From a virus: a stretch of 24,044 bases of DNA. The stretch spans positions 1 to 24,044 of IMG/VR virus record IMGVR_UViG_3300042301_004526; one strand, given 5' to 3'. The notes beneath the pieces were generated by a model that worked only from the letters and a program-made list of their open reading frames with translations, ran no database searches and was not told the origin of the DNA. Within the stretch, counting starts at the first letter, position 1. Each line of letters starts with the position of its first letter. Positions 3,001 through 15,453 of this stretch are shown here, piece after piece. The position numbers and the translations under genes were made by a program.

Positions 3001-3197
3001 TCTGTTCCACCAAAATAAGCTTGAAACTCGTCATAATTAGTAATGAATACTGGTTCGAAAGCTGGACCTTTTAAAGTCTCACCTACCAAACCTAACGTAG
3101 TAACCCCGACACTCTGTGCTACGAACGATAAGTCCGTTTCAGATGTGTATACTCCAGGTGATACGTATACTTTTTGATTTGCTTGTGCTGTTGCCAT
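1..3197 (-). CDS. 18: Contractile tail sheath protein (T4 gp18-like), C-terminus cut by window edge
   Basis: This gene encodes the sheath subunit that polymerises around the tail tube and contracts on infection. The frame is open from an ATG at 3197 to the window edge without a stop, giving 1065 codons. The N-terminus reads KVYVSPGVYTSETDLSFVAQ, the standard sheath opening. The C-terminal part carries the sheath hallmarks: PWFASAGYTRG near residue 910, INPIATFADVGTVIWGNKTL, RLNVRRLLLQARK and finally KALEFIDIEFFITP, which is the end of the C-terminal sheath domain, so only a few residues should be missing. T4 gp18 has 659 residues. The excess lies mainly in a Ser/Thr/Tyr/Asn-rich stretch of roughly residues 130-420, probably surface-exposed inserted domains (inference). 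No Shine-Dalgarno sequence precedes the ATG; a TATTTAT element lies 33 bases upstream. The identification is very secure. Confidence 0.95.
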   Translation of the reverse strand, partial: MATAQANQKVYVSPGVYTSETDLSFVAQSVGVTTLGLVGETLKGPAFEPVFITNYDEFQAYFGGTEPVKFVNTQIPKYEAAYIAKSYLQQSNQLFVTRVLGLSGYDAGPSWSLTVTANVDPLTIGLNPSTGTTWSATFTGTSSGGTVTFLNPNNLPSQVSANYNTQYRLADGSVSTYSNDFNSYLDTIMDTPSLSATTAIVYGAIPETDYNSLVSTYSAVTNAYDCYSVDLSQNDLSAGSNDSWYYANFQNYSADSYSGYSFDYVVSSLTSGSSQSFTGTVSGNVYNFSGTAYPEYNNMVVATLRSRGISLYTNSSTSENHGPVYQVTGLTDVSLLCTGQYSGITTSPYATFAISGVTKENEVFTFETSLLAASSKYLTKVFGFDNFGKSRFEVPLFIEEVYPASLAYGYNQGYIRGLNCTLIELPEARDTTSTTSIAWNLEKYQSPETPFLVSELRGNKVYNLFKFISISDGDSANTEVKVSIANLSFNNMTFDVLVRSFFDTDANPVVIEKFTNCNLDPASNNFVAKKIGSSNGEYALISKFIMIEMADEAPIDAIPCGFYGYTQREYENYSVYPSPYIQYKVKYNYPGEVIYNPPFGTTTGGVSNAVESGGDIVRRTYLGFSTAQYGVDESFFSYKGKQNPTVDWGNRTDSIKWNVLSKGFHMDSGATVVNIGNTSVDSGTTAFECGVADFREDPQTQENPYYFIYSRKYTVCFAGGFDGWDIYREFRTNQDRFQLGDSGYLAGAAASPRYPTATGDGVFKRIIVQNNTQDFANTDYYAYLLGVLTFANPEATNINVFATTGIDYVNNSNLVEEAIDMVQYSRADSVYIATTPDYNMYTPDSTNSLDIIYSQEAVDNLDNTGIDSNYTATYYPWILVRDTVSNTQIYLPPTGEVCRNLALTDNIAFPWFASAGYTRGLVNSVKARQKLTQEDRDTLYQGRINPIATFADVGTVIWGNKTLQVSDTALNRLNVRRLLLQARKLISAVAVRLLFEQNDQIVRQQFLDSVNPILDAIRRDRGLYDFRVTVSSSPEDLDRNTLTGKIYLKPTKALEFIDIEFFITP

Positions 3198-3230: not shown

Positions 3231-3237
3231 ATAAATA
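3231..3237 (-). promoter_or_regulatory. TATTTAT element upstream of tail sheath gene
   Basis: Read on the minus strand the sequence is TTTTTACGAATATTTATG. The heptamer ends 33 bases before the sheath ATG. It is one of eight same-orientation copies ahead of genes that start after an intergenic gap. The promoter role is inferred from position and recurrence only. Confidence 0.45.
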
Positions 3238-3274
3238 TTCGTAAAAAGACGAAAAAACTTTACTTTTTAATAAC

Positions 3275-3281
3275 TATTTAT
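3275..3281 (+). promoter_or_regulatory. TATTTAT element upstream of small RHH-like gene
   Basis: The plus strand reads TAACTATTTATAAACGG, 35 bases before the ATG at 3317. The 12 bases TATTTATAAACG (3275-3286) are identical to those ahead of the DNA polymerase gene. On the opposite strand the same site reads TATAAATA, the T4 late-promoter consensus, so a role for the sheath gene cannot be excluded. Confidence 0.4.
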
Positions 3282-3285
3282 AAAC

Positions 3286-3310
3286 GGTAGGAAAAAATTC
3301 TACCTTTTTT
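3286..3310 (+). terminator. Hairpin followed by six T (terminator-like)
   Basis: GGTAG (3286-3290) pairs with CTACC (3300-3304). A G-T and an A-T pair extend the stem to seven, the loop is A-rich, and TTTTTT follows at 3305-3310. The form is that of an intrinsic terminator reading rightwards. It sits just before the ATG of the small gene at 3317, so it could instead be an attenuator or block antisense transcription leaving the sheath region. Confidence 0.35.
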
Positions 3311-3316
3311 CACCCT

Positions 3317-3478
3317 ATGAAAACAAAGAAAGAAATAAAGAACATTAAAATATCACCAGAATCACATGATATACTGAAAAAGTATTGTGAAAAACGAGGA
3401 ATTAAGATTTATAAATTTTTAGAAAACTTAATTATAGAAAGGTGTAAAGAGAAGAAAGATATCTACGGAGAGGATTAA
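3317..3478 (+). CDS. Small ribbon-helix-helix-like protein, 53 aa
   Basis: The ATG at 3317 opens a 53-residue frame ending at TAA 3476-3478. It fills the gap between two minus-strand tail genes. The core IKISPESHDILKKYCEKRG followed by IKIYKFLENLIIERC has the length and pattern of a ribbon-helix-helix DNA-binding protein: a short beta strand, a helix, a Gly-containing turn and a second amphipathic helix. It is strongly basic at both ends. Its stop overlaps the 3' end of the convergent gp15-like gene by four bases. A TATTTAT element and a hairpin with a T-tract lie directly upstream. An Arc/MetJ-type repressor role is inferred from the pattern; the short length keeps confidence moderate. Confidence 0.6.
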   Translation: MKTKKEIKNIKISPESHDILKKYCEKRGIKIYKFLENLIIERCKEKKDIYGED

Positions 3479-4770
3479 TAAATGTCCCAACTACTATAAG
3501 TTCCTGAACCAATTACTTTGGTTGCTCCTGAAAAAACTAAGATACCTGTTTCAGGAGAATAAGAAACTACAATAGAATTTTGACTATTTTTTTCATCGTG
3601 AACAATTTTAATTTTATCTCCTTCTTTAAAAATTAAATTTTTTGATATATTAAAAGTTGACCCACTCTGAACACCTAAAGTATATGTGTTATTAGAATAT
3701 GAATTTGTTCTAAAATATATTGGAGTATTTCCATATAAAGTGTTTTCAAATTGTATGTTAGCGGTTTGTCCTGTGATTTGTTTGGTTACACTAATCGTTA
3801 ACGAATCGTTTGTTGTTATTTGAATATTTTGAACATCAACACCATAGTAATCACCATTAATATAAACATCATATGTGTTAATATTATTTGATGAAATAAA
3901 ATTCATATTAGCAGTAAAATCTATTTTATCAGTTAATACATTATTATTATCAACATATAAAAAATTAAAATTAAATTCATCAGGATTTTCTGTAGAATTT
4001 CTTCTACGACTTCTTGTTGAAGTTTCAACTTCCATTAGTTGTGTAACTCTTTGAATTGCGGGTTTAACCTCAAACTCATCTTCATCAATTAAATAACCTA
4101 ACATCGTAAAGTCATAATTTTGAATATAATATTTTCTTGCGTCCATAGTCATTTGAGACTCGTCTGAAATATTATTAAGAACGATTGGAACATATTGACC
4201 TTTTATAAAAGTATATGCCTGACGAGATGAAAACTTTTGCATAACAACTTTATTCAACTCGTTTAATTCTCTCATTCTATTACAAATTATTTTTACACTA
4301 TAGTTAATATCAACAGGTACTGGCTGTGGGATTGTATAAATATCCATACCTTGTTCGTTACCATTCCAAGTTGGAACGGAAGCATAATAGAATTGTTTTC
4401 TATTTGGTATCGTATATTGTAATGAGGGGTTGGTTCCATATTTTACTTCGGGGGTTCTAACAACGGTTATAAATGGTGGTGACGGGTTGTAATCCAAATC
4501 CACAAACTTCCAAGTTTCTAAATATTGTGACCAGTTTTGTGTTGTAATTAGGATATCCAACATAGGTACAATTTTTCCAGCGGTTACAACTTGTAAATCT
4601 GTTTTAACAAAATCTAACATACCCCTATCCAAATCGGCATGTAATACTGACTTTGGTAGATAAGTTCCATCTGCGTTAATATATTCTAAAAGTTGTTCTC
4701 TTCTAGCAGATAACGTTTTCTTAGGAACCAATGGTAATGTTGGTTTTACAACTTGTTTTGGTAATGCCAT
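3475..4770 (-). CDS. gp15-like tail terminator / sheath stabiliser with C-terminal extension
   Basis: In T4, gp15 caps the tail tube and sheath and joins them to the neck. Residues about 45-245 follow the order of T4 gp15: a strand-rich start (KIVPMLDILITTQNWSQYL), a middle segment PVDINYSVKIICNRMRELNE followed by VVMQKFSS, and a closing segment where KYYIQNYDFTMLGYLIDEDE matches the T4 pattern of a strand-rich run ending near the body of the protein. The similarity is recalled by pattern, not aligned. T4 gp15 has 272 residues and this protein 431. The extra part after about residue 265 is beta-rich and Asn/Thr/Ser-rich, ending WDIY. The gene starts one base after the preceding stop, so it is translated in an operon with the two genes before it, and it lies next to the sheath gene, as expected for a tail-completion protein. 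Confidence 0.6.
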   Translation of the reverse strand: MALPKQVVKPTLPLVPKKTLSARREQLLEYINADGTYLPKSVLHADLDRGMLDFVKTDLQVVTAGKIVPMLDILITTQNWSQYLETWKFVDLDYNPSPPFITVVRTPEVKYGTNPSLQYTIPNRKQFYYASVPTWNGNEQGMDIYTIPQPVPVDINYSVKIICNRMRELNELNKVVMQKFSSRQAYTFIKGQYVPIVLNNISDESQMTMDARKYYIQNYDFTMLGYLIDEDEFEVKPAIQRVTQLMEVETSTRSRRRNSTENPDEFNFNFLYVDNNNVLTDKIDFTANMNFISSNNINTYDVYINGDYYGVDVQNIQITTNDSLTISVTKQITGQTANIQFENTLYGNTPIYFRTNSYSNNTYTLGVQSGSTFNISKNLIFKEGDKIKIVHDEKNSQNSIVVSYSPETGILVFSGATKVIGSGTYSSWDIY

Positions 4771-4771
4771 T

Positions 4772-5185
4772 TTATTTTTTTACTACAAATATTTTATTAG
4801 TTGAATTTATCATATCAACTTCATTTGCCCCATATATTGGTTCTTCACTATTTTTATAAACAAAAGTGTTAAATCTATATGGGTCATATGTCACAATTTT
4901 ATTAGAATTTGTGACAGGTAAATCTTCACAAGGATATTCACAATATTCTAATAATTTTCCAATTACAAATGCGTGAACATTTTTGCTTTTTTCTTTTCTA
5001 ACTCTATCTTTTCCACCGGGTCTAACTCTAAATTCAACATCACCCAATTTAACGTAATCCGCATGCATAATTACTTTATTGTTATAAGTTATTGAAAAAG
5101 TATGTTTATGTAAATTATAATATACCATAACTTTTTTACCAATAAACAAAGAATCAAATTGTGATTCGGTTATCAATACTTTCAT
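4772..5185 (-). CDS. Conserved phage hypothetical protein, 137 aa
   Basis: The function is unknown. The central part KVMVYYNLHKHTFSITYNNK, then VIMHADYVKLGDVEFRV and KSKNVHAFVIGKLL, matches a small domain I recall from many phage and plasmid hypothetical proteins (YxNLHK...HAD.V...KNVHAFV). A second conserved-looking segment, VTYDPYRFNTFVYK, follows near residue 105. The N-terminus MKVLITESQFDSLF contains an L/I-x-E-type motif resembling a prohead protease site. Its ATG overlaps the stop of the upstream gp14-like gene by one base, and it ends one base before the gp15-like gene, so it is co-translated with neck and tail genes; a virion role is plausible but not shown. Confidence 0.7.
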   Translation of the reverse strand: MKVLITESQFDSLFIGKKVMVYYNLHKHTFSITYNNKVIMHADYVKLGDVEFRVRPGGKDRVRKEKSKNVHAFVIGKLLEYCEYPCEDLPVTNSNKIVTYDPYRFNTFVYKNSEEPIYGANEVDMINSTNKIFVVKK

Positions 5186-5697
5186 TATAATCCCCTAAAT
5201 TCGTTTTCACTTACGTACGTTCCAATAATCGTTCTATAGAATGGTTTGTAACCACCATATGTATGTTTGTTGTCGGACCTAACATATCCGTCATCACTAA
5301 CTGAATAGTATCTAACTCGGTCTTCAGTTTCATAATAACCAATGTAGTCACCCATGAATATTTCAATACCCAAATCATCAAGTTGTTTTTGATAAAGTGA
5401 AAATTTCATATTACCTGGTTCTTGTTGTTCAACTCTTGATGTACCTAAAAATTTATTGGTTGGTGCCATAACTTGAACTAATCCTTTTAATTCAATAGGT
5501 GCCATAAATTGAACACCATCTTCAAGAACCTCACCATAAACCGCATCAGTTTTTGTTTTATATCTGTCAATACGATATAATACGACGGTAAAGTTCATAT
5601 CACCTTCTAACCACTCTTGACCCATACCCACGTCTAACTCGTAGTCTTCACCACCGAAGAACTTACCTAACCTTGTTATTGGAACTAATTTCTGCAT
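5185..5697 (-). CDS. Putative neck protein (gp14-like), 170 aa
   Basis: This is the first gene of the leftward neck/tail operon. The C-terminal half reads like the T4 gp14 plan: a strand segment (MKFSLYQKQLDDLGIEIFMG), then DYIGYYETEDRVRYYSVSDD, then a Tyr-rich segment GYKPFYRTIIGTYVSENEF, comparable to the T4 segment in which a GDLIYF-type strand precedes PFYQ. The match is weak and rests on pattern and on position directly before a gp15-like gene, as in T4. At 170 residues it is shorter than T4 gp14 (256). A TATTTAT element ends seven bases before the ATG, so the transcript may be almost leaderless. It could instead be another head-tail joining protein. Confidence 0.5.
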   Translation of the reverse strand: MQKLVPITRLGKFFGGEDYELDVGMGQEWLEGDMNFTVVLYRIDRYKTKTDAVYGEVLEDGVQFMAPIELKGLVQVMAPTNKFLGTSRVEQQEPGNMKFSLYQKQLDDLGIEIFMGDYIGYYETEDRVRYYSVSDDGYVRSDNKHTYGGYKPFYRTIIGTYVSENEFRGL

Positions 5698-5704
5698 ATA
5701 ATTG

Positions 5705-5711
5705 ATAAATA
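5705..5711 (-). promoter_or_regulatory. TATTTAT element upstream of gp14-like gene
   Basis: The minus strand reads AAAAATAAAGTATTTATCAA. The heptamer ends seven bases before the ATG at 5697. If it acts as a -10 element, transcription would start close to the start codon. Confidence 0.45.
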
Positions 5712-5726
5712 CTTTATTTTTACTTA

Positions 5727-5733
5727 TATTTAT
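5727..5733 (+). promoter_or_regulatory. TATTTAT element upstream of SNF2 helicase gene
   Basis: The plus strand reads TTTTTACTTATATTTATTCC, 20 bases before the ATG at 5754. With 5705-5711 it makes a divergent pair in a 56-base gap, one copy facing each gene. The upstream bases TTTTTAC also precede the sheath-gene copy. Confidence 0.45.
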
Positions 5734-5753
5734 TCCAAACTTTTATTTTATAA

Positions 5754-7505
5754 ATGGAAATAAGTTTAGAATCAAAAGCAATGACGATTCTTGAAACATA
5801 TGAGGGTGGTAATAATTACCTTTTGGTGTTAAAGAAAAAATCAAAGTTAAATAAGAAATTTTACCCAACTCGGAGTCAATCCGAGTATATCATTAACTTC
5901 CACGATAAACAACCAAAGGTAGCAAGAAAGTGGGTTATCTTGGACGCATACTTCGCACAGAAATTGGCCGACGATAAGTTAATGACCGAAGTACCTGAAA
6001 AAGTTTGGGTGGAAAAGTTATTGGCAGAAAAAGAAAAGGCGTTTCATATTTGGGGAAAGATAAAAGAAACAGAAGAATTTCACGATTTTTGGTTACCAAA
6101 AGCTGCGGTCATAAAAGACAACACGGTTAAAGATGTTGTTATCAATTATGACAAATATTCTAATCGTCCACCACTTGAACATCAAAAAGAAGCTGTCCAA
6201 AAATTGGTTGAAAATAAGAAATTTATTTTGGCGGATGATATGGGTTTGGGAAAAACCACATCAACAATTATTGCTGCGTTGGAAGCAAACTCAAAGAAAG
6301 TTTTAATTATTTGTCCTGCAACATTAAAGATTAACTGGAAACGAGAAATTGAAAATTATTCCGACAAATCAATTTATATTGCTGAAGGTAAAAATTTTAG
6401 TACGGATGCCGATTTTGTTATCATCAACTATGATATTATAAAAAACTTCCACGACCCAAAGAAAAAAGATGATTCGGAAATTCTTAAAGCAAATTTTGAT
6501 TTGGTTATTGTTGATGAAGCCCATTATATTAAAAATGGACAAGCTCAAAGAACAAAGTTAATTAATGATTTGGTTAAAACCGTTGACCGACTTTGGTTAT
6601 TAACGGGAACTCCAATGACATCAAGACCGATGGATTATTTTAACTTATTAAGTTTGGTGGATAGTCCCGTGTCCAAAAATTGGATGGCATACGCAATTAG
6701 GTATTGTCAGGGTTATCAATTCAATGTCGGTGGTAGAAAGATATGGAACATCACCGGAGCGTCGAACTTGGACGAGTTAAGGGAAAGAACGGCATCAACA
6801 ATTTTAAGAAGATTAAAAGAAAATGTTTTGGATTTACCCGATAAAATTATTACACCAGTTTATTTGAGATTAAAATCAAAAAACTATGAAGAAGTTATGG
6901 GTGAATATTATGATTGGTATGATAAAAATCCTGACGAATCAAAATCATTAACGGTTCAATTTTCAAAGCTCACAAAAGTTAGACAGATTATTGCCGATGA
7001 AAAAATATCACAAACAATTGAAATTGCTGAGAACATCATCGAACAAGATAAAAAAGTAATTATCTTTTGTAATTTTACTGATTCATTAAATAAAATTATT
7101 GAACACTTTGGAAAATCGGCAGTAAAACTTGACGGGTCAATGTCAAAACCTGAAAGACAAAGAAGTGTTGATGAATTTCAAGATAATCCAAAAGTTAAGG
7201 TTTTTGTTGGAAATATTAAAGCGGCAGGTGTTGGTATTACTTTAACCTCAGCAGAAGCTGTTATTATGAATGACCTATCATTTTTACCCTCAGACCACGC
7301 CCAAGCGGAAGACCGAGCATACCGATATGGTCAAAAAAATAATGTATTGGTTTATTATCCAATATTTGAAAACACAATCGAAGGTGTCATTTATGATATC
7401 TTAAATAATAAAAAACAAGTCATCGCAACAGTTATGGGTGACAATCAAATAACAACGGACGCAGCCGAAGAAATCTTACAAAAAATAAATCAACTGCGAT
7501 ATTAA
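5754..7505 (+). CDS. SNF2-family DNA helicase/translocase
   Basis: This is a superfamily 2 ATPase of the SNF2 type, closest in pattern to SMARCAL1-like DNA-annealing helicases. It probably acts on replication or recombination forks, the role UvsW has in T4. Visible motifs are Walker A ADDMGLGKTT (about 160-169), motif Ia ICPATLKINW, Walker B DEAH at 254-257, motif III LTGTP at 283-287, the C-terminal lobe with GNIKAAGVGITLTSAEAVI, and motif VI QAEDRAYRYGQ at about 517-527 with both arginines. All catalytic parts are present, so it should be active. The N-terminal 135 residues are an unassigned accessory region. It is the first gene of the rightward block and is followed after 41 bases by the superoxide dismutase fusion. 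Confidence 0.93.
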   Translation: MEISLESKAMTILETYEGGNNYLLVLKKKSKLNKKFYPTRSQSEYIINFHDKQPKVARKWVILDAYFAQKLADDKLMTEVPEKVWVEKLLAEKEKAFHIWGKIKETEEFHDFWLPKAAVIKDNTVKDVVINYDKYSNRPPLEHQKEAVQKLVENKKFILADDMGLGKTTSTIIAALEANSKKVLIICPATLKINWKREIENYSDKSIYIAEGKNFSTDADFVIINYDIIKNFHDPKKKDDSEILKANFDLVIVDEAHYIKNGQAQRTKLINDLVKTVDRLWLLTGTPMTSRPMDYFNLLSLVDSPVSKNWMAYAIRYCQGYQFNVGGRKIWNITGASNLDELRERTASTILRRLKENVLDLPDKIITPVYLRLKSKNYEEVMGEYYDWYDKNPDESKSLTVQFSKLTKVRQIIADEKISQTIEIAENIIEQDKKVIIFCNFTDSLNKIIEHFGKSAVKLDGSMSKPERQRSVDEFQDNPKVKVFVGNIKAAGVGITLTSAEAVIMNDLSFLPSDHAQAEDRAYRYGQKNNVLVYYPIFENTIEGVIYDILNNKKQVIATVMGDNQITTDAAEEILQKINQLRY

Positions 7506-7513
7506 CAACTAAC

Positions 7514-7540
7514 GGATTATTTATATGTAATGGATAATCC
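7514..7540 (+). repeat. Perfect 7-bp inverted repeat ahead of SOD fusion
   Basis: GGATTAT (7514-7520) and ATAATCC (7534-7540) are perfect inverted copies separated by 13 bases. The left arm overlaps the TATTTAT element at 7518-7524, and the right arm ends six bases before the ATG. It could be an operator or a hairpin covering the start. Confidence 0.4.
7518..7524 (+). promoter_or_regulatory. TATTTAT element upstream of SOD fusion gene
   Basis: The plus strand reads AACGGATTATTTATATG, with 22 bases to the ATG at 7547. It overlaps the left arm of an inverted repeat, which suggests the promoter could be controlled at this site (inference). Confidence 0.42.
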
Positions 7541-7546
7541 AAAATT

Positions 7547-9079
7547 ATGAAAAAAATACAAGAAAAAATTCAGAAACTTGAAAAACAAATAGTAAACGAA
7601 AAAGTTGAAACAGGAAAAAAAGTTTTAATTTCTGAAATGAAAAAAATTGGAATAGAGAAATTACCCTATTCTTACTCAGCCCTCAAAAACTTCATTGACC
7701 CAGAGACAATGAATGTTCACTACAACAAACACTATAAAGGTTATGTAGACAAATTAAACAACGCACTATCTAAGAAAAAACGAGGGGACTTAGACTTAGA
7801 AAAGATTATTAGAACAATTAGTCGTTTCGATAAAGATATAAGAAATAATGCCGGTGGAGCATTTAACCACGCATTGTTTTGGAATATGCTAACACCAACA
7901 CCACAAAGATTAACTGGTGAGTTATATAAAAAAATCACAAAACAATACGGAACTTTTACAAAATTCAAAAAAGAATTTGAAAAAATTGCCAAGGAAAGAT
8001 TCGGTTCAGGTTGGGTGTGGTTAGTCCTTACTTCAAGTAATACCTTGAAAATTATGACACTTCCAAATCAAGACAATCCGTTAATGAACGTAATTGAAAA
8101 TGGTGGATTTCCACTTTTAGGTTTGGACTTATGGGAACACGCATATTATCTGAAATACAAAAATAAAAGAGATGAATACATCACAAATTTTTGGGGTGTT
8201 GTAAATTGGGATTTCGTAACCAAAATGTACGAAATGAAAACCCAAACAAAATTAATGGAATCTCAAAAAATGAAACAAATTTTAAGTGAAGGTAAATCTG
8301 AAATGTGTTCATCAAAAGAAAATGAATTTTATAGAAACTTATTTAATACCGTTCCTGAAGTTAAATGGACTTATAGAGATGGTATTGATAGTATTTTGAG
8401 AGATGTTTTTAGTGAAAAATTTATTGAAAAACCTGAAAGAGACCAATTACCTGGTTTTTATGATTTAGAAGGAACTGGTAGGTCTGTAATTAATAAACTA
8501 AACACAAATTACACAGCATTTTGTATTTTATTACAAGACTTAAATGTCGTAATAAAGTCAAAAACAAATGAAGATATTATTAATTTTAAAGATAAAAATC
8601 CTTTTGCTCAAAAAATAGAAACAAAAAGATTTATCAATGCTTTAAATGATTATAAATTTAGAATATTCGATACTGAAAGTTCTACGTTCTTAAACTTAAT
8701 GAGAACACTTACCGAAAAAAATGATGCGGGAGCAAAAAGAGAAGAAATTACAGCTGCAATCTTAAAAAGATTTTTTGGTAATAAAGTTAACGTAACTTTG
8801 ATTGGTGAACCGGGTAGTAAAAAAGATGCTATAGGTGGTATTGATATTGAAATAACTAAAGATGGTAAAACATTAACAGGTCAAATAAAACCATATAGAG
8901 AAATGATACTTGATGATGACAAAATAACACTCAAAGGAACCGCAGCTGTAAGTGTATACAAAACTGATTTAATGATTTTTCAAAAAGGAAGAAGTGTTTT
9001 AATTTTTAATAAAAAACCAAAAATTGTTAATGGTAATTTTGTTTTTTCAACAGATTCATTAGTTTACAATATACAATAA
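7547..9079 (+). CDS. Mn-type superoxide dismutase fused to a PD-(D/E)XK nuclease-like domain
   Basis: Residues about 36-228 are a complete Fe/Mn superoxide dismutase, which converts superoxide to peroxide and oxygen. The metal ligands are all visible: H58 (MNVHYNKHYKGYV, with Y66 as the active-site tyrosine), H108 (NNAGGAFNHALFW), and D194 and H198 (GLDLWEHAYYLKYKNKRDEY). The paired Gly-Gly before NHALFW and Q175 in NQDNPL are the Mn-type combination rather than the Fe-type. Residues 1-35 are a Lys/Glu-rich helix. After a linker (KLMESQKMKQILSEGKS, 235-251) comes a 260-residue domain absent from ordinary dismutases. Its end has a restriction-endonuclease-like pattern: a helix with KREEITAAILKRFF, a strand with D433 (GGIDIEI), then Q446-I-K448 (TGQIKPY) and a further strand YKTDLMIF. 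The nuclease assignment is inference. The dismutase part is very secure. Confidence 0.88.
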   Translation: MKKIQEKIQKLEKQIVNEKVETGKKVLISEMKKIGIEKLPYSYSALKNFIDPETMNVHYNKHYKGYVDKLNNALSKKKRGDLDLEKIIRTISRFDKDIRNNAGGAFNHALFWNMLTPTPQRLTGELYKKITKQYGTFTKFKKEFEKIAKERFGSGWVWLVLTSSNTLKIMTLPNQDNPLMNVIENGGFPLLGLDLWEHAYYLKYKNKRDEYITNFWGVVNWDFVTKMYEMKTQTKLMESQKMKQILSEGKSEMCSSKENEFYRNLFNTVPEVKWTYRDGIDSILRDVFSEKFIEKPERDQLPGFYDLEGTGRSVINKLNTNYTAFCILLQDLNVVIKSKTNEDIINFKDKNPFAQKIETKRFINALNDYKFRIFDTESSTFLNLMRTLTEKNDAGAKREEITAAILKRFFGNKVNVTLIGEPGSKKDAIGGIDIEITKDGKTLTGQIKPYREMILDDDKITLKGTAAVSVYKTDLMIFQKGRSVLIFNKKPKIVNGNFVFSTDSLVYNIQ

Positions 9080-9091
9080 TAAATTAAAAGA

Positions 9092-9098
9092 TATTTAT
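9092..9098 (+). promoter_or_regulatory. TATTTAT element upstream of gp13-like gene
   Basis: The plus strand reads TTAAAAGATATTTATTTGAT, five bases before the ATG at 9104, inside a 24-base gap after the SOD fusion. The closeness to the start would give a leaderless message if this is a -10 element. Confidence 0.42.
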
Positions 9099-9103
9099 TT
9101 GAT

Positions 9104-10228
9104 ATGTCAGTAATACCAGAACCGGAAAGAAGTAAAATATACACACGAGTAAAGCACTTATTAGGTGCTCCAATTAGAAGTGTTGAAGTTGAAGATGAAA
9201 TGATGGATTCTTTAATGGAACTATCTATTCAAGATTATGAAGAATATATTTTACAATGGTTAATCGATAGTCAATGGGTTAACTTAGTAAATTTAAATAT
9301 GACGGAGAAATCTGTGGCGAACGCTTTGATTACTAAAACAATGGATTTTGAACAACAATTCAGTTATTCTTATTCTAAAATTGTTGGTTTACAAACCGTT
9401 GGTCCTTGGGTTCTAAAGAAAGACTATTTCATATTAAGTGCTAATACTCAAAACTATGAAATACCTGCAGGTAGAGAGGTTAACGAACTTTTATGGTTCA
9501 GTAATCAATCTTTTTCGGCATTTGGATTAGGTGGTATGGCTGGTGGTTTTGGTGGTGTCGGTTTAGGTGCCAATGAAGCAGGTTTTGCTCAAGCAGGTTA
9601 TCAAGGTTCTTATTTTATGATGTCAGGTTTTGATTACCTAATAAGAATGCAAGAAGCAAATATCTTGAATCGTATCTTAGGTGGTTCACTTACATATAGA
9701 ATTACAGGTTTACCTGATGGTAAAAGAAATGTATTCTTATACAATACTCCCGGTGGAAGATTTAACTGGAACCAATATAGTGATTACGTAGGTAAAGCCG
9801 TATGGTATTGGTATTATGATGTTGGTCCTGATAGTAGAGCAGATTGTTTAAAGAATAACCCAGATGTTATTAAATTACCTTCAGATGTTCCATTAGAAGA
9901 ACTTACTTGGTCGGACTTAAATGTTCCAGCTAAACAATGGGTTAGAAGATGGTTCACCGCATATGTTAAAGAAACATTAGCAAGAGTTAGGGGAAAATAT
10001 AGTGGTAATTTGAAAACACCTGATTCGGAAATAACAATGGATTATACAAGTCTTTTAACAGAAGCAAAAGATGAAAAGTCTAAGTTAATGGAAGAATTAA
10101 CAGGTGCTGAAGGTTGGTTAACAAGATTAAGACCTGAAAAAGTAATGGAGCGAGAAGCATTAATTGCTGAAAACTTAAATAAACAAATGAAATTTAGAGC
10201 AATGCCTCGACAAATATACGTAATATAA
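9104..10228 (+). CDS. Putative neck / head-completion protein (gp13-like), 374 aa
   Basis: The N-terminus has the plan of head-tail connector proteins: a short helix (SKIYTRVKHLLG), the junction APIRSVEVEDEMMDSLMELS and a helix ending IQDYEEYILQWL. This resembles the LGxPxxxVEVTDEQID pattern I recall for gp13-like neck proteins of T4-like phages. Next comes WVLKKDYFILSANTQNYEIP, which corresponds to the strand ahead of the central body. A glycine-rich loop (GLGGMAGGFGGVGLGANEAG, about 143-162) is inserted, and the C-terminus is rich in charged helices ending MPRQIYVI. The gene is separated from gp14- and gp15-like genes by the helicase and SOD genes and points the opposite way. It is followed after one base by the 111-residue gene. 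Structural role likely; the exact gp13 match is tentative. Confidence 0.5.
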   Translation: MSVIPEPERSKIYTRVKHLLGAPIRSVEVEDEMMDSLMELSIQDYEEYILQWLIDSQWVNLVNLNMTEKSVANALITKTMDFEQQFSYSYSKIVGLQTVGPWVLKKDYFILSANTQNYEIPAGREVNELLWFSNQSFSAFGLGGMAGGFGGVGLGANEAGFAQAGYQGSYFMMSGFDYLIRMQEANILNRILGGSLTYRITGLPDGKRNVFLYNTPGGRFNWNQYSDYVGKAVWYWYYDVGPDSRADCLKNNPDVIKLPSDVPLEELTWSDLNVPAKQWVRRWFTAYVKETLARVRGKYSGNLKTPDSEITMDYTSLLTEAKDEKSKLMEELTGAEGWLTRLRPEKVMEREALIAENLNKQMKFRAMPRQIYVI

Positions 10229-10229
10229 T

Positions 10230-10565
10230 ATGTCAATAATTAGAACAATACCATCTCAAAGATTAATCAACGGTGAAGTAATTAACACTTCAGAAGTATC
10301 TTTAGTATCAGAAAAAGAATACCAAACAAATGGTGAAGAATGTATCATTGTCAGAGGTGTTTCGGAATCAGTGGTGACACTTAATTCCAAAACAACTGAC
10401 CATATTGTTGTTAAAGCAATGACAATGATAACAATTAAACCTGATATCGGTAAAATCGACGAAGACTATGATGAAATCGTAATGGACCGATATGCTTGTG
10501 TTGAATTCAGATTCTGTGGTGGTAGTTGGTATATTTTAAGTAGTGACGGTCTGAAAAACTCCTAA
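10230..10565 (+). CDS. Small putative virion protein, 111 aa, function unknown
   Basis: I do not recognise this protein. It reads as a compact beta-rich fold with alternating hydrophobic strands (CIIVRGVSESVVTLNSKTTD, VVKAMTMITIKPDIG) and an aromatic end, CVEFRFCGGSWYILSSDG. Such small beta barrels are common among phage decoration and fibre-associated proteins, but this is only a resemblance. The ATG starts one base after the stop of the gp13-like gene, so it is translated with it. Its last 30 bases overlap the 3' end of the convergent DNA polymerase gene. Confidence 0.65.
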   Translation: MSIIRTIPSQRLINGEVINTSEVSLVSEKEYQTNGEECIIVRGVSESVVTLNSKTTDHIVVKAMTMITIKPDIGKIDEDYDEIVMDRYACVEFRFCGGSWYILSSDGLKNS

Positions 10566-13268
10566 CTTTTCTTCCCAACCTTCTTCAGCAAGTTCATACA
10601 TATAATCAGGACTAAGACCTCTTTTTTCCCAATAAGATAACTCATTGTCAGATGGTGTCATTACCTCTACCAAACTATCTTGGTCACCATCACCTAATGG
10701 ATAACCATTTATCAACTCACATTGTGCTGTTGTAAAAATACCTCTTTTTTCAGGTTCAGTCACGATTAAATCATTTCTAACTTCATCTTTAAAGACAACC
10801 AATAATGGTTCGATTCTTTTATTAAAAGTTGTTACCGCTCTTGCCGTATTATAATCACCAGTCAAATCAGGATTATCATCCAAAATATTTTTATCTAACA
10901 TATAACAATTAATTTGAACACCATCACCTTTTTTCTGAACATCACCATGAGATGATTTTAATCCGTTATTAACATACATAATAACATCACCCAAGTTTAC
11001 ATTAATACCTTCTTGAATAGCAAGTTCCATATGAGCCATTCTACTCATACTATTCCCCGCCTTTGTCTTAGTCGTTAATCTTTTCTTATATTCGTCAATA
11101 GAAAGTTTAACCCTCGCTCTTTGAGCAATCTTACTTAAAGGGATTTGTTTGTCATAAATCTTTTGTAAATATTCATAATAATATTCAACAAACTCTTTTC
11201 CCTTGCCTTCAAGTAATAATCTAACACCTACGTCCAAGAACTCCTCAATATAAAGTGGTAATTTTTTAGATTTAATACTATTACCGGTAAGTTTAATCTT
11301 ACCCTTATAATCCATAGTGGCGTAGTTTTTACGAGCTAAGTTAATACACGAAGGCCAAGTTCCATCACAATCAAGTGCCATTTCACCCTTCATAAACGTA
11401 TCGTTATATTCTGCAACATCTGCCTCAGGACCAGTAAATTCTTTACCCTCTTTTACCTTCCAATTAAGACCCCTACCGATATATGTCCTAACTTCCACAC
11501 CATCGGGTAATGAAAAGTTTACACCGTCCGTATCCATTACAAGTGGAGTATAACCACGGGACATAAAGAATTTTATCATCTGACGTAGGTATTGTCGTCC
11601 TGTACAGGTTATCTGCTCTCCCATATACATATCACCCCACGCAAACACTTGAGGAGCTGAGAGGGCCCCAAACATAGAGTTAATGAAAGTCTTAATCGGT
11701 AATTGTTTGTTTCCATATGATTCGGACTTCTTACGGTCAGTTTCATAAAACTTCTCGGCAAGTTGTTTATACTTAATACGAGTATCACGGAAATACTTTA
11801 ACATACCTTTCATTGCTCCTGTAACATCACACTCAGGAAACACATCGTGAACCAATTGAATTGACGGATATAGGGAACTAAAGTCGAGTTTTAATACATT
11901 CTTCGAATACCCAACCTTTAACAATCTTGATAATCCACCAACAAAATCAGTTTTACCTTGTTTGGCGGGGATGGCAATATTATGTTTATAAGACCAAGCA
12001 AGCATCAACATCTTCCATAATGTCGCAGTTCCCATTGTTGAAACTCTTTCATATGTTGTTGGAATCATCGCAGCAAGTAAGAACGAACCTTGATTAAATT
12101 CTTGGTCCACTTGTAGAGTTTCGTCCAAGTCATCGTCAAGATACATTTCAACTAACTTATCACCACCAATCTTTTTGTATACACCAGGAAATTTTGTATC
12201 TAAATTATCAAAAGTAGGATTGTTTGCTTTTTTATAATTACCGTTATTAACGTTCAACCAAAACTCATCTTTGTTCTTATAAAATGGTCCAATATCCAAG
12301 TGGTCAATATAAACTCGGTCAGGAGCTTCGGCATTAATAAATTTGGTAATATACTTCAAACCTGCAGATTTAATACTCGAATTGATTGCCTGTGCTCTAC
12401 GAACAGAGTGAATAATATCAATAACATTATAACCCCAAATTGAAGTCTGAACATATGTCTCAACCTCGTTTGCAAGTTTTAACATACCATCTTTTCTTGT
12501 GAATGAATGTTGGGGGTGTAATGATTTACAAATCTTTTTGGGGTCAATACCCAACAATCTACATCTTTCAAATATCCAATGCCAGTCGAAGTTTGCTGAG
12601 TTATAACCACCGATAATACTTGGTTTTAATTCGTTAATAACATTAAAGAATTCTATGATGGCACCCTTTTCTTGGTCTTCATCAATACATTCAATAACTC
12701 TATGATATCCTTTGTTTGTTTTAATTCCAATCATAAAAATCCTACCGTCTTTAGGTTCTAAAGAGGTAGTCTCTAAGTCGAATACGAGTCGGGTTACTTC
12801 GTCATAATTTTCAAAACCTTTGAATAATCTTTTTTCTTTTGAGATTAAATATTGTTCTACAGGTGGTAGAATCATTATCTTATCTTTTCCTTTTTCACCC
12901 CACGGGTCCAAATTACCATCTCTAAAAAATTGGATAAGTTCTCTATAACCTTTTAAAGATTTAACCATAAAGGTCAATCCTTTTTCCAATCTTTCATTTC
13001 CGTGGGTTTCCAATTTTTCAATCATAATCCCATACTTTGTCATAGCAGCCTTTTGAGCTTCTTTTGAATTACCATAAAAGTTAAGGTTTCTCAAATCACC
13101 AACCCAAGCAAATGGAATAAATGTATCCTTACGGATTTCTTTACCTTTACCAGGAATTTCTTTGATTTTGTAAATAGAATTGGATGCGTAGTCGAACTCG
13201 ATTGCGACTATAAATTCTTCGGGGTCGTTTCCATGTAGGAACGATTCAATTTCTTCAGTTGATATCAT
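10536..13268 (-). CDS. 43: Family B DNA polymerase (T4 gp43-like)
   Basis: This is the replicative polymerase with 3'-5' proofreading, 910 residues against 898 in T4 gp43. Exonuclease motifs are Exo I LVFDLETTSL (D164, E166), Exo II GGYNSANFDWHW (N226, D228) and Exo III YNVID (Y280, D284). Polymerase motifs are A LDFSSLYPSI (D462), B KTFINSMFG (K526, N530, G534) and C MDTDG (D579, D581). Motif C has DTDG where T4 has DTDS; both aspartates that bind metal are kept. All catalytic residues are present. The gene is transcribed leftwards, from a leader with a TATTTAT element and a small hairpin. Its 3' end overlaps the 111-residue gene by 30 bases, so the two convergent transcripts are complementary there. 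Confidence 0.96.
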   Translation of the reverse strand: MISTEEIESFLHGNDPEEFIVAIEFDYASNSIYKIKEIPGKGKEIRKDTFIPFAWVGDLRNLNFYGNSKEAQKAAMTKYGIMIEKLETHGNERLEKGLTFMVKSLKGYRELIQFFRDGNLDPWGEKGKDKIMILPPVEQYLISKEKRLFKGFENYDEVTRLVFDLETTSLEPKDGRIFMIGIKTNKGYHRVIECIDEDQEKGAIIEFFNVINELKPSIIGGYNSANFDWHWIFERCRLLGIDPKKICKSLHPQHSFTRKDGMLKLANEVETYVQTSIWGYNVIDIIHSVRRAQAINSSIKSAGLKYITKFINAEAPDRVYIDHLDIGPFYKNKDEFWLNVNNGNYKKANNPTFDNLDTKFPGVYKKIGGDKLVEMYLDDDLDETLQVDQEFNQGSFLLAAMIPTTYERVSTMGTATLWKMLMLAWSYKHNIAIPAKQGKTDFVGGLSRLLKVGYSKNVLKLDFSSLYPSIQLVHDVFPECDVTGAMKGMLKYFRDTRIKYKQLAEKFYETDRKKSESYGNKQLPIKTFINSMFGALSAPQVFAWGDMYMGEQITCTGRQYLRQMIKFFMSRGYTPLVMDTDGVNFSLPDGVEVRTYIGRGLNWKVKEGKEFTGPEADVAEYNDTFMKGEMALDCDGTWPSCINLARKNYATMDYKGKIKLTGNSIKSKKLPLYIEEFLDVGVRLLLEGKGKEFVEYYYEYLQKIYDKQIPLSKIAQRARVKLSIDEYKKRLTTKTKAGNSMSRMAHMELAIQEGINVNLGDVIMYVNNGLKSSHGDVQKKGDGVQINCYMLDKNILDDNPDLTGDYNTARAVTTFNKRIEPLLVVFKDEVRNDLIVTEPEKRGIFTTAQCELINGYPLGDGDQDSLVEVMTPSDNELSYWEKRGLSPDYMYELAEEGWEEKLGVFQTVTT

Positions 13269-13293
13269 AATATTATAACGGTGGTTTATTAGC

Positions 13294-13310
13294 TTTCACT
13301 CACGGTGAAA
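13294..13310 (-). promoter_or_regulatory. Leader hairpin upstream of DNA polymerase (candidate translational operator)
   Basis: In the leader RNA the sequence TTTCAC-CGTGA-GTGAAA forms a perfect six-pair stem with a five-base loop. It ends 25 bases before the start codon. T4 gp43 is known to repress its own translation by binding a hairpin near its start; this hairpin is in a comparable place but does not overlap the start codon. Function is inferred. Confidence 0.35.
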
Positions 13311-13323
13311 TTTACCTTCGTTT

Positions 13324-13330
13324 ATAAATA
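13324..13330 (-). promoter_or_regulatory. TATTTAT element upstream of DNA polymerase
   Basis: The minus strand reads TTTAGTTATATTTATAAACG, with 55 bases to the ATG at 13268. It shares the 12 bases TATTTATAAACG with the copy ahead of the RHH-like gene. The long leader between it and the gene contains the hairpin at 13294-13310. Confidence 0.45.
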
Positions 13331-13355
13331 TAACTAAATTTTTGAATAAATCAAA

Positions 13356-13760
13356 CTAACAACAAGGAGATTTTGAAATAAAACTATCTTGAACATTAAT
13401 GTATAATTCTTCCCTGATTGGTAAAATTAATGTCCCGATTTCAACTGATTGATTGGCACAAGGTTTATCAGATTGAATTAAAAATTGTCCCTGATATCTT
13501 CCCGGTGTGTTTGTATCTCTTTCAGTAAATCTAAAATAAACATAATATTCGGTAGGAGCACCCTCAGGTAAATATAAAGATGTTATACCACATTGACCCG
13601 AAACAATCTTTGGAATACCTGTTTCAACATCAATCATCGTGAAATAGATTGTTGAACATTCTAAAGTTTCCATTAATTGTTGATAACCTGACCTTCCGTC
13701 TTGAACAACTTGCATTTTCAATAACGGTAATGTCGCATTCTTTTTGATAAAAAATTCCAT
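13356..13760 (-). CDS. Small structural protein with BppU-like N-terminal fold, 134 aa
   Basis: The sequence follows the pattern of the N-terminal domain of baseplate upper proteins (BppU): IKKNATLPLLKMQVVQDGRS, a strand STIYFTMIDVETG, then a strand YYVYFRFTERDTNTPGRYQG followed by QFLI. The DTxxPGxYxxxF motif is the clearest mark of this fold, which in lactococcal and related phages anchors receptor-binding proteins on the baseplate. The end is ISKSPCC, with two terminal cysteines. The protein is short, so it may be only the anchoring domain or a small fibre-associated protein. It follows the last glycan-island gene by 16 bases in the same direction but has its own TATTTAT element. Function is inferred from pattern. 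Confidence 0.6.
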   Translation of the reverse strand: MEFFIKKNATLPLLKMQVVQDGRSGYQQLMETLECSTIYFTMIDVETGIPKIVSGQCGITSLYLPEGAPTEYYVYFRFTERDTNTPGRYQGQFLIQSDKPCANQSVEIGTLILPIREELYINVQDSFISKSPCC

Positions 13761-13764
13761 AACA

Positions 13765-13771
13765 ATAAATA
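13765..13771 (-). promoter_or_regulatory. TATTTAT element upstream of BppU-like gene
   Basis: The minus strand reads CATAACAATATATTTATTG, four bases before the ATG at 13760 and within the 16-base gap after the glycan operon. It suggests the structural gene is expressed separately from the island. Confidence 0.42.
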
Positions 13772-13776
13772 TATTG

Positions 13777-15453
13777 TTATGACTCTTTTCTTAGCCCTCT
13801 TTCGTAATGTTCAAATCTATCGTGTTCGGTCGGTGTCATAAGTAATAAACCAGGATATAAATTACCCTCTTTAACCAACTGATACATATGACTCATCCAA
13901 GTTTGCTCGAATGGATGCCCCCAAGTTGTATCTAAAAACATTTTTTGATTACCTGTTCTGGTTACAATCTGAGGCCAATTACAATAATAAACGTCACCCG
14001 TGACATAAGGAATTCCTTGAAATGTTCTTACAGAATCATATAATGCCTTTGGAGCGTTGGGGTCTAATCCTTGTTGAGGTAGTCTATTCTTACCTGGCCA
14101 ATATTTTTCTCTAATATGTTGTGGTACATTATACCAAGCCCATTGAGTTCCATTATCACCAAAAAATTCACTAAAATTAAGTTTAAGAAAATCAAAATTT
14201 TCTTTCTTAACAATCTGTAATGTTTTTGAATATAAATTTGGAACATATCTATTAAATCCGTTTCTACATACTTTACCTTCGTTTGGATAAAAGAACATAT
14301 CATCTTCAAAAAACAAATAAAAATCTAAATCTGTTTCATTTTGAAAATGTTCTGCAATCCATTGACGACCACCACAAATACCTAAATTATCTTTTTTAAT
14401 GTGTTCAAAACCATACTCTTCACAAATTACCGAGTATTCCTCGGTAGTTGACAAATCACTTGAATTATCTAATAAAAACTTTTTTGTCTTATATATGTAA
14501 TCTTTATCGTAGGCAATCATAGAATCAATTAGTGTCCTAAATTGATTCGGACTATTAAATGTTATTACATATAAACCAACTTTATTTATATCCAAATTAT
14601 TTTCACTTTTATGAATATTTTCAGACTTAAGTTTAAGTTCGTCGTTCTTTAAATTTTCAAAAAATTTACCAATCAATCCATTTGAATCAATTTCAAAATA
14701 ATCAATAATGTCAGAATGTTTATAACACATAATACTGAATATAGATTCTTCAGTACCCATAAGACCTTCATTTAATGTAGATTGTAATAAATTATAATAA
14801 ATTCCGTTAATGTCACCTATTGTGTGTTTTGGTCCACCAAAAAAACCACCACGAGCAACTTTATTAACTTTGTCACCCGCAATATCATTTAACCTATTAT
14901 ATTCAAATCCGTGAATTTCAGTTTCAGCGTCATACGGGAAACAAACAAATGAAAATTTTGAAATGTATTTTGATAATTTATCTAAAACTTTATCGTGAGT
15001 AAAATATCCCGAATGAACCGTATTTGTTAAACCACCATCAATCCAAAACATATATTCCGAATTAAATTTATCCATAATCTTGGCATCATTTAATAGGAAA
15101 ACTTTAGACATAACAAGTGGATTATAGTTTTCCAATCTTGCTTGAGTTGACTCTCTTAACCACCCAGCTCGATTTAACCAATCTTCATTAGTTCTTATTT
15201 TTTGAATGTTTTTAAAAAATTCATTGTCTTGAAACCAAGATAATGGTCTACTAATAAATTGTGTATTTTCAGGACTTCGTCTTTCAAATACAAATTTTTC
15301 AAGTTCATCTTCACCAAAAATTATTAAATTTTCTTCAACTTTTAATAATTGTTCAAATTTATCTAAATAGTGTTGAAATGGTCTTGACCATCCTTCAGAT
15401 AAATCCCCCCTTCCGATATCCCAAATACCGGTTACTAATGTTATTTTATTCAT
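13777..15453 (-). CDS. HtrL/YibB-type protein fused to a GT-A glycosyltransferase, 558 aa
   Basis: Two domains are visible. Residues 1 to about 265 match the HtrL_YibB pattern (a GT-like family found in polysaccharide loci): LVTGIWDIGRGD near the start, the WIDGG motif at 137-141 and GGFFGG at 202-207. From about residue 288 a second domain starts with GLYVITFNSPNQFRTLIDSM and LLDNSSD, then an acidic metal site EDD at 383-385 (FYLFFEDDMFF), as in nucleotide-diphospho-sugar transferases. A charged linker (about 266-287) joins them. The fusion suggests two sequential transfer steps on one glycan (inference). Substrates cannot be told. It is the last gene of the glycan operon, and its ATG overlaps the stop of the next HtrL/YibB gene by eight bases. 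Confidence 0.78.
   Translation of the reverse strand: MNKITLVTGIWDIGRGDLSEGWSRPFQHYLDKFEQLLKVEENLIIFGEDELEKFVFERRSPENTQFISRPLSWFQDNEFFKNIQKIRTNEDWLNRAGWLRESTQARLENYNPLVMSKVFLLNDAKIMDKFNSEYMFWIDGGLTNTVHSGYFTHDKVLDKLSKYISKFSFVCFPYDAETEIHGFEYNRLNDIAGDKVNKVARGGFFGGPKHTIGDINGIYYNLLQSTLNEGLMGTEESIFSIMCYKHSDIIDYFEIDSNGLIGKFFENLKNDELKLKSENIHKSENNLDINKVGLYVITFNSPNQFRTLIDSMIAYDKDYIYKTKKFLLDNSSDLSTTEEYSVICEEYGFEHIKKDNLGICGGRQWIAEHFQNETDLDFYLFFEDDMFFYPNEGKVCRNGFNRYVPNLYSKTLQIVKKENFDFLKLNFSEFFGDNGTQWAWYNVPQHIREKYWPGKNRLPQQGLDPNAPKALYDSVRTFQGIPYVTGDVYYCNWPQIVTRTGNQKMFLDTTWGHPFEQTWMSHMYQLVKEGNLYPGLLLMTPTEHDRFEHYERGLRKES

Follow-up and report, generated by a model that had tools for sequence, protein, structure and literature searches.

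This locus raises the question of what the heptamer TATTTAT does ahead of its genes: is it a promoter and, if so, which factor reads it? The window, that is, the whole stretch of DNA analysed, is an entire virus record of 24,044 bases, and genome-wide counts were therefore taken in relatives. The initial annotation had placed eight copies of TATTTAT in coding orientation ahead of every gene that starts after an intergenic gap outside the glycan island, in six gaps of about 340 bases. All eight coordinates and strands are correct: eight of eight such gap-leading genes carry the word, and the six gaps sum to 343 bases. The word is slightly rarer in the window than expected (17 copies vs. 23.7). 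The signal in the window is the placement of TATTTAT, not its abundance. Sense copies inside genes had been pointed out as background; these are present, but the list was incomplete and missed one at 4336-4342(-). After dinucleotide-preserving shuffling of each gap, TATTTAT preceded on average 0.81 of these eight genes (maximum four), and eight of eight was reached in 0 of 2,000 shuffles. The outcome was the same (0 of 2,000) when the best of all 7-mers was scored, which corrects for the post-hoc choice of the word.

The pairs 3231/3275 and 5705/5727 sit in divergent gaps, so that the gene to which a copy belongs cannot be told from its strand. These copies were therefore allotted by footprinting. 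With the family-B DNA polymerase as query we obtained 80 related loci, whose orthologous upstream regions were compared. The counts below are of distinct upstream sequences, from relatives that are nonetheless not independent samples; distances run from the box to the start codon.

3231..3237 (-): putative late-type box ahead of the tail-sheath-type gene starting at 3197(-); predicted RNA start about 3225; kept in 44 of 44, at a distance of 34-35 in most
3275..3281 (+): putative late-type box ahead of a 53-aa gene at 3317(+); kept in 23 of 41
5705..5711 (-): putative late-type box ahead of the gene starting at 5697(-), with a very short predicted leader; kept in 38 of 44, at a distance of 6 or 4 in most
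5727..5733 (+): TATTTAT, probably a chance copy, ahead of a UvsW-like helicase gene at 5754(+); kept in 1 of 47
7518..7524 (+): putative late-type box ahead of a 510-aa gene at 7547(+); kept in 40 of 41, at a distance of 16-23 in all but one
9092..9098 (+): putative late-type box ahead of the neck-protein gene (9104+, phrog_211), 5 nt from its start codon; kept in 58 of 58, at a distance of 4-6 in 54; leaderless mRNA predicted
13324..13330 (-): putative late-type box before the gene for DNA polymerase (10536-13268-); kept in 40 of 51, at a distance of 55-65
13765..13771 (-): putative late-type box ahead of a 134-aa gene (13356-13760-), 4 nt from its start codon; kept in 54 of 55, at a distance of exactly 4 in 51; leaderless mRNA predicted

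Seven of the eight sites are kept in orthologous gaps. The copy at 5727(+) is kept in a single upstream sequence and is therefore probably there by chance. The box is likewise found ahead of the tail sheath gene in six relatives. Control starts, operon-internal or in the glycan island, have the box in 3 of 49, 0 of 29, 0 of 57 and 0 of 49 orthologous upstreams, as expected from the original remark that such genes lack it.

Some other features were observed at these loci. A perfect inverted repeat, ATAACAATA-TATT-TATTGTTAT, occupies window positions 13757-13780(-), spanning the start codon of the 134-aa gene together with its box, and a similar one is found in many relatives. A short hairpin (GGTAG-CTACC) followed by TTTTTT (3287-3310) separates the box at 3275(+) from the gene start at 3317. 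The 510-aa protein (7547-9079(+)) has no PHROG match; by eye, its N-terminal stretch is like Fe/Mn superoxide dismutase and the remainder is unrelated.

Six long relatives of 130-321 kb (1.3 Mb in total, several of the records being fragments) were used for the genome-wide counts. Their genes were called with our own script, which was checked on the window. In co-directional gaps TATTTAT occurs 305 times in sense (4.0 per kb) and 49 times in antisense (0.64 per kb); inside genes the density is 0.15 per kb on either strand. The 45 convergent gaps hold one copy. In divergent gaps the word is equally frequent on both strands, as would be expected where a copy can belong to either flanking gene. 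The check proposed in the initial annotation, a count of intergenic vs. coding copies by strand, gives a strand-biased enrichment in the gaps of the relatives, but no excess over expectation in the window as a whole. Leaving tRNA words aside, TATTTAT ranks first among the 7-mers in the gaps of the first four genomes (141 observed vs. 13.6 expected), followed by TATTTATA and ATATTTAT, and the conserved unit, (A)TATTTATA, is longer than the heptamer. About 40% of the co-directional gaps in whole genomes carry TATTTAT. The rule that it precedes every gap-leading gene holds for the window and not for the whole genomes of relatives. Terminator-like hairpins and T runs are also seen directly 5' of TATTTAT boxes (upstreams of G003 123531, G004 37098 and G001 24501), so that terminator and promoter abut. 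If TATTTAT were merely a chance word of AT-rich gaps, the low whole-window count and the one unconserved site among eight would be easily understood. For the class this explanation is refuted and keeps next to no credibility, given the shuffles, the 305:49 strand ratio and the retention of the word across dozens of distinct loci; it probably applies to 5727(+) only.

The box also partitions genes by function. In the relatives it leads the genes for tail sheath, tail tube, baseplate wedge, portal and neck and, in three of the six, the baseplate hub gene. It is never found ahead of the genes for NrdA and NrdB (ribonucleotide reductase), DnaB, exonuclease, UvsX and SSB. As with a T4-type late promoter, virion and not replication genes are preceded by the box, with two exceptions that count against the late-promoter reading: the major capsid gene has no box in five relatives and in Flavobacterium phage immuto, and the DNA polymerase gene has one in the window and in several relatives. 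Judged by its gene membership, the box class would be expressed late. Gaps without TATTTAT are enriched in the host-type word TATCTTTG (37 observed vs. 0.7 expected; 1 antisense). The arrangement TTTG-N17-21-TAnnTTTG is found in 43 gaps in sense and in 1 in antisense; this set is separate from the box sites, and TATTTATA and the host-type word seldom occur in one gap. By its motif, the TTTG-N17-21-TAnnTTTG set is the Bacteroidota primary-sigma promoter. Since such host-type promoters are present in the same genomes, the phage host very probably belongs to the Bacteroidota. For TAnnTTTG, too, the distance to the start codon has two peaks, at 0-4 and 15-24 (G001-G004, G009 and G010), and some early mRNAs may likewise be leaderless. 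The heptamer had been distinguished from the Bacteroidota -7 box (TAnnTTTG), correctly, as TATTTATA does not contain TTTG.

The distance between box and start codon was analysed at 414 sites. It is exactly 4 nt at 84 sites and 4-6 nt at 150 (33 expected). Distances of 0-3 nt (5 sites vs. 48 expected) and 7-10 nt (8 vs. 37) are depleted, and a second, broad peak is found at 11-22 nt (149 vs. 82). In the 11-22-nt class an A run lies exactly where the ATG falls in the 4-6-nt class. Most simply, RNA synthesis would begin at one fixed point, 4-6 nt downstream of TATTTAT; transcripts would then either start with the start codon or have leaders of about 6-7 nt or more. This start position is predicted from the distances and the A run. 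About one third of these promoters are predicted to make leaderless mRNAs that start at the A of the ATG. In two genes of the 4-6-nt class, at 9104(+) and the 134-aa gene, selection at the protein level acts on the frame from codon 2 or 3 on; codon periodicity begins with the ATG at 9104(+) in the neck-protein gene and with codon 2 in the 134-aa gene. The annotated ATG is therefore the real start in both. In Bacteroidota, leaders no longer than about 10 nt are found on about 4% of the mRNAs in B. thetaiotaomicron and 13% in F. johnsoniae (PMC7366714, PMC6847099). Upstream of the box, an A/T tract is found at -17 to -14 from its first T. Logo positions farther upstream carry 0.08 bit or less each, and there is no -35 element and no -33 signal.

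The variable distance of 4 to 55 bases had been taken as an argument for a promoter and against a translation signal. The promoter is supported, but the spread is not random and has the two peaks just described. The sharp peak at 4-6 nt would suit a translation-initiation or mRNA-processing signal as well, and Bacteroidota lack Shine-Dalgarno sequences (PMC6847099). More than half of the sites, however, are at least 11 nt from the start codon, at positions conserved for each gene. Operon-internal genes also need translation, yet the box is found at 0 of 123 starts after gaps of 0-9 bases and at 4 of 146 overlapping starts. Its absence before replication genes points the same way, and we consider a translation or processing signal very improbable.

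The mRNA of the DNA polymerase gene has a leader with a structure of its own:

13283..13316 (-): conserved RNA structure in the leader of the polymerase mRNA, from just after the predicted RNA start

The leader forms two helices with 98% of cells paired and four pairs with compensatory changes, and a structure as good was found in 0 of 500 shuffles. GGU/ACC is swapped for GAC/GUC in some relatives. RNAalifold alone gave the inner hairpin only; the outer helix was read from the alignment and then counted. There is no Rfam match. T4 gp43 represses its own translation via a leader hairpin. The polymerase leader RNA described here is possibly a translational operator.

The candidate reader of the box is a gp55-type sigma factor. 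It is encoded in seven of the eight long relatives (phrog_234, E 1e-5 to 1e-3); the eighth long contig lacks this gene and also its neighbouring genes. A profile built from 31 homologues finds further ones in phage immuto, which grows on Flavobacterium sp. LMO8 (2.5e-13; ORF 78150-78872), and in Mel-JY01 (1.9e-10). In the reverse search with the profile, T4 gp55 (3.6e-4) and S-SM1 gp55 (1.2e-3) were each the best match of their own stretch. The region-2 part of the structure model, whose mean pLDDT is only 67, can be superimposed on T4 gp55 of the open complex (7d7c_F) over residues 25-136 (Z 10.1, 107 aligned, 4.3 A) and on sigma-E region 2 bound to the -10 strand (Z 10.6, 2.1 A). Against two-domain sigma factors the aligned part extends over 28-245, with a large rmsd over both domains. 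The C-terminal part of the phage sigma aligns to sigma region 4, which T4 gp55 does not have, and this counts against the gp55 model. A phage-encoded multisubunit RNA polymerase was considered and rejected, as no PF04997 (beta-prime) match over the cut-off was found in six records.

Five relatives (G002 and the four of 309-321 kb, G009-G012) encode a second, RpoD-like sigma of 265-266 aa with a strong region-2 match, for example:

G002 141311-142108 (+): gene for the RpoD-like second sigma (L133)

This second sigma counts against the gp55 model, as does LR756508; in this and in LR756511 and SP-15, all more distant T4-like phages, the 50 kb read per record gave no clear box. TATTTATA might be a divergent -7 element read by the RpoD-like sigma or by the host primary sigma, and its start spacing and A/T tract near -28 are like those of -7 promoters in F. 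johnsoniae (PMC6847099). Immuto and Mel-JY01, however, carry the box and have no PF04542 (RpoD-like) match; a gp55-type factor is therefore favoured. In addition, the box lacks the TTTG of TAnnTTTG, the -33 signal is missing from the logo and the host-type sites form a set of their own. We regard reading by an RpoD-like or primary sigma as unlikely. Its co-occurrence with the box suggests that the gp55-type sigma is the factor that reads it. The original proposal of a promoter, perhaps read by a phage-encoded factor, is supported in its first part by the strand bias, the near-absence from convergent gaps, the functional partition, the conservation and the fixed start position; the second part gains support from the co-occurring sigma.

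We think it likely that TATTTATA is the late-promoter core of T4-like Bacteroidota phages, a large clade with genomes of up to about 320 kb, and that it is read by the gp55-type sigma on the host core polymerase. The host core RNA polymerase would carry the phage sigma, whose region 2 would recognise one 8-bp box. No -35 element would be needed, and the A/T tract, roughly one and a half turns 5' of the box, would probably help. The RNA would start 4-6 nt downstream of TATTTAT and, where this coincides with the A of the ATG (in about one third of cases), the mRNA would be leaderless. In the F. johnsoniae promoter numbering, the box begins at -12, the start is 4-5 nt downstream and the A/T tract is near -28 (PMC6847099); the phage tract and start match this numbering, which suggests the host core enzyme. 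No convincing match to a gp45-type sliding clamp was found with the profiles phrog_223 and PF02916, and the likeness to T4 may therefore not extend to clamp activation.

In immuto, 38 gaps have TATTTAT in sense and 12 in antisense, and in Mel-JY01 14 and 4; RM378 has TATTTAA-like words, too few to judge. In immuto the box leads the genes for TerL, portal, sheath, tube, hub, tape measure and other virion proteins, and is lacking before those for SSB, DnaB, primase, QueC and FolE. Among immuto genes after gaps, 10 of 13 virion-type vs. 0 of 5 replication/nucleotide genes have it (p = 0.007, on a small list chosen by annotation). Another strand-biased word, TTTAGGTA(TCAA), occurs in immuto co-directional gaps 20 times in sense and once in antisense (L260-L263) and is possibly an early promoter class. 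In the open-access journal literature searched, no published promoter of immuto and no report of the box or of phage late promoters bearing it was found. Immuto is cultured, which lets the promoter be tested directly. The box would provide a late-promoter rule for very abundant uncultivated giant freshwater phages, with operons and timing classes readable from sequence alone. Homologous sigmas (gp55 of T4 and cyanophages vs. that of Bacteroidota phages) paired with a changed box offer a natural experiment on box choice by sigma region 2. Should the leaderless prediction be true, the phage exploits leaderless initiation in a phylum where such mRNAs are rare.

In T4 late promoters an 8-bp box precedes the start by about one helical turn; there is no -35 element, and the DNA downstream is A/T-rich (PMC2988020). 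The co-directional gaps read in T4 and cyanophage S-SM1 have TATAAATA in sense and lack TATTTAT in that orientation. In the co-directional gaps of four relatives, TATAAATA is found 7 times in sense vs. 80 in antisense (T4 control: 4 gaps in sense, 0 in antisense); the sense-strand word of these genomes is not the T4 consensus. A T4 late promoter in normal orientation, considered for the divergent gaps, was rejected because the co-directional gaps are biased to the other strand. The initial annotation had stated that the box is not the T4 late consensus. The letters do differ and TATAAATA is mostly antisense, but the box is not remote from T4: the architecture looks the same and two of eight letters are changed. 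The box thus differs from the T4 promoter in sequence, but its architecture and probable reader suggest that it works in the same way.

Compared with T4, the giant phages share the single 8-bp box without a -35 element, its predicted place about one turn from the RNA start, an A/T-rich segment downstream, its position before virion genes and a phage-encoded homologue of the gp55 sigma. In the box, TT replaces AA at letters 4 and 5, which makes TATTTATA the exact reverse complement of T4 TATAAATA. The giant-phage sigma, of about 249 aa, has a C-terminal part, possibly region-4-like, that T4 gp55 lacks; no gp45 homologue was detected in the relatives, and many predicted starts are at the ATG itself. 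That the T4 late promoter turned into its reverse complement, while gp55 gained or kept a region-4-like domain and about one third of late transcripts became leaderless, with virion proteins made from such mRNAs in hosts where they are uncommon, is a scenario to which we give even chances of being right or wrong. Immuto (Immutovirus) is likewise T4-like, with the box ahead of virion genes and the same sigma family; unlike the giant phages, it has a family-A DNA polymerase, a smaller genome, few 4-6-nt sites and no TAnnTTTG enrichment. The Bacteroidota primary-sigma promoter (TTTG / TAnnTTTG) is similar in its A/T tract near -28 and in the 4-5 nt from box to start (PMC6847099), whereas the giant-phage box has no TTTG within it or upstream.
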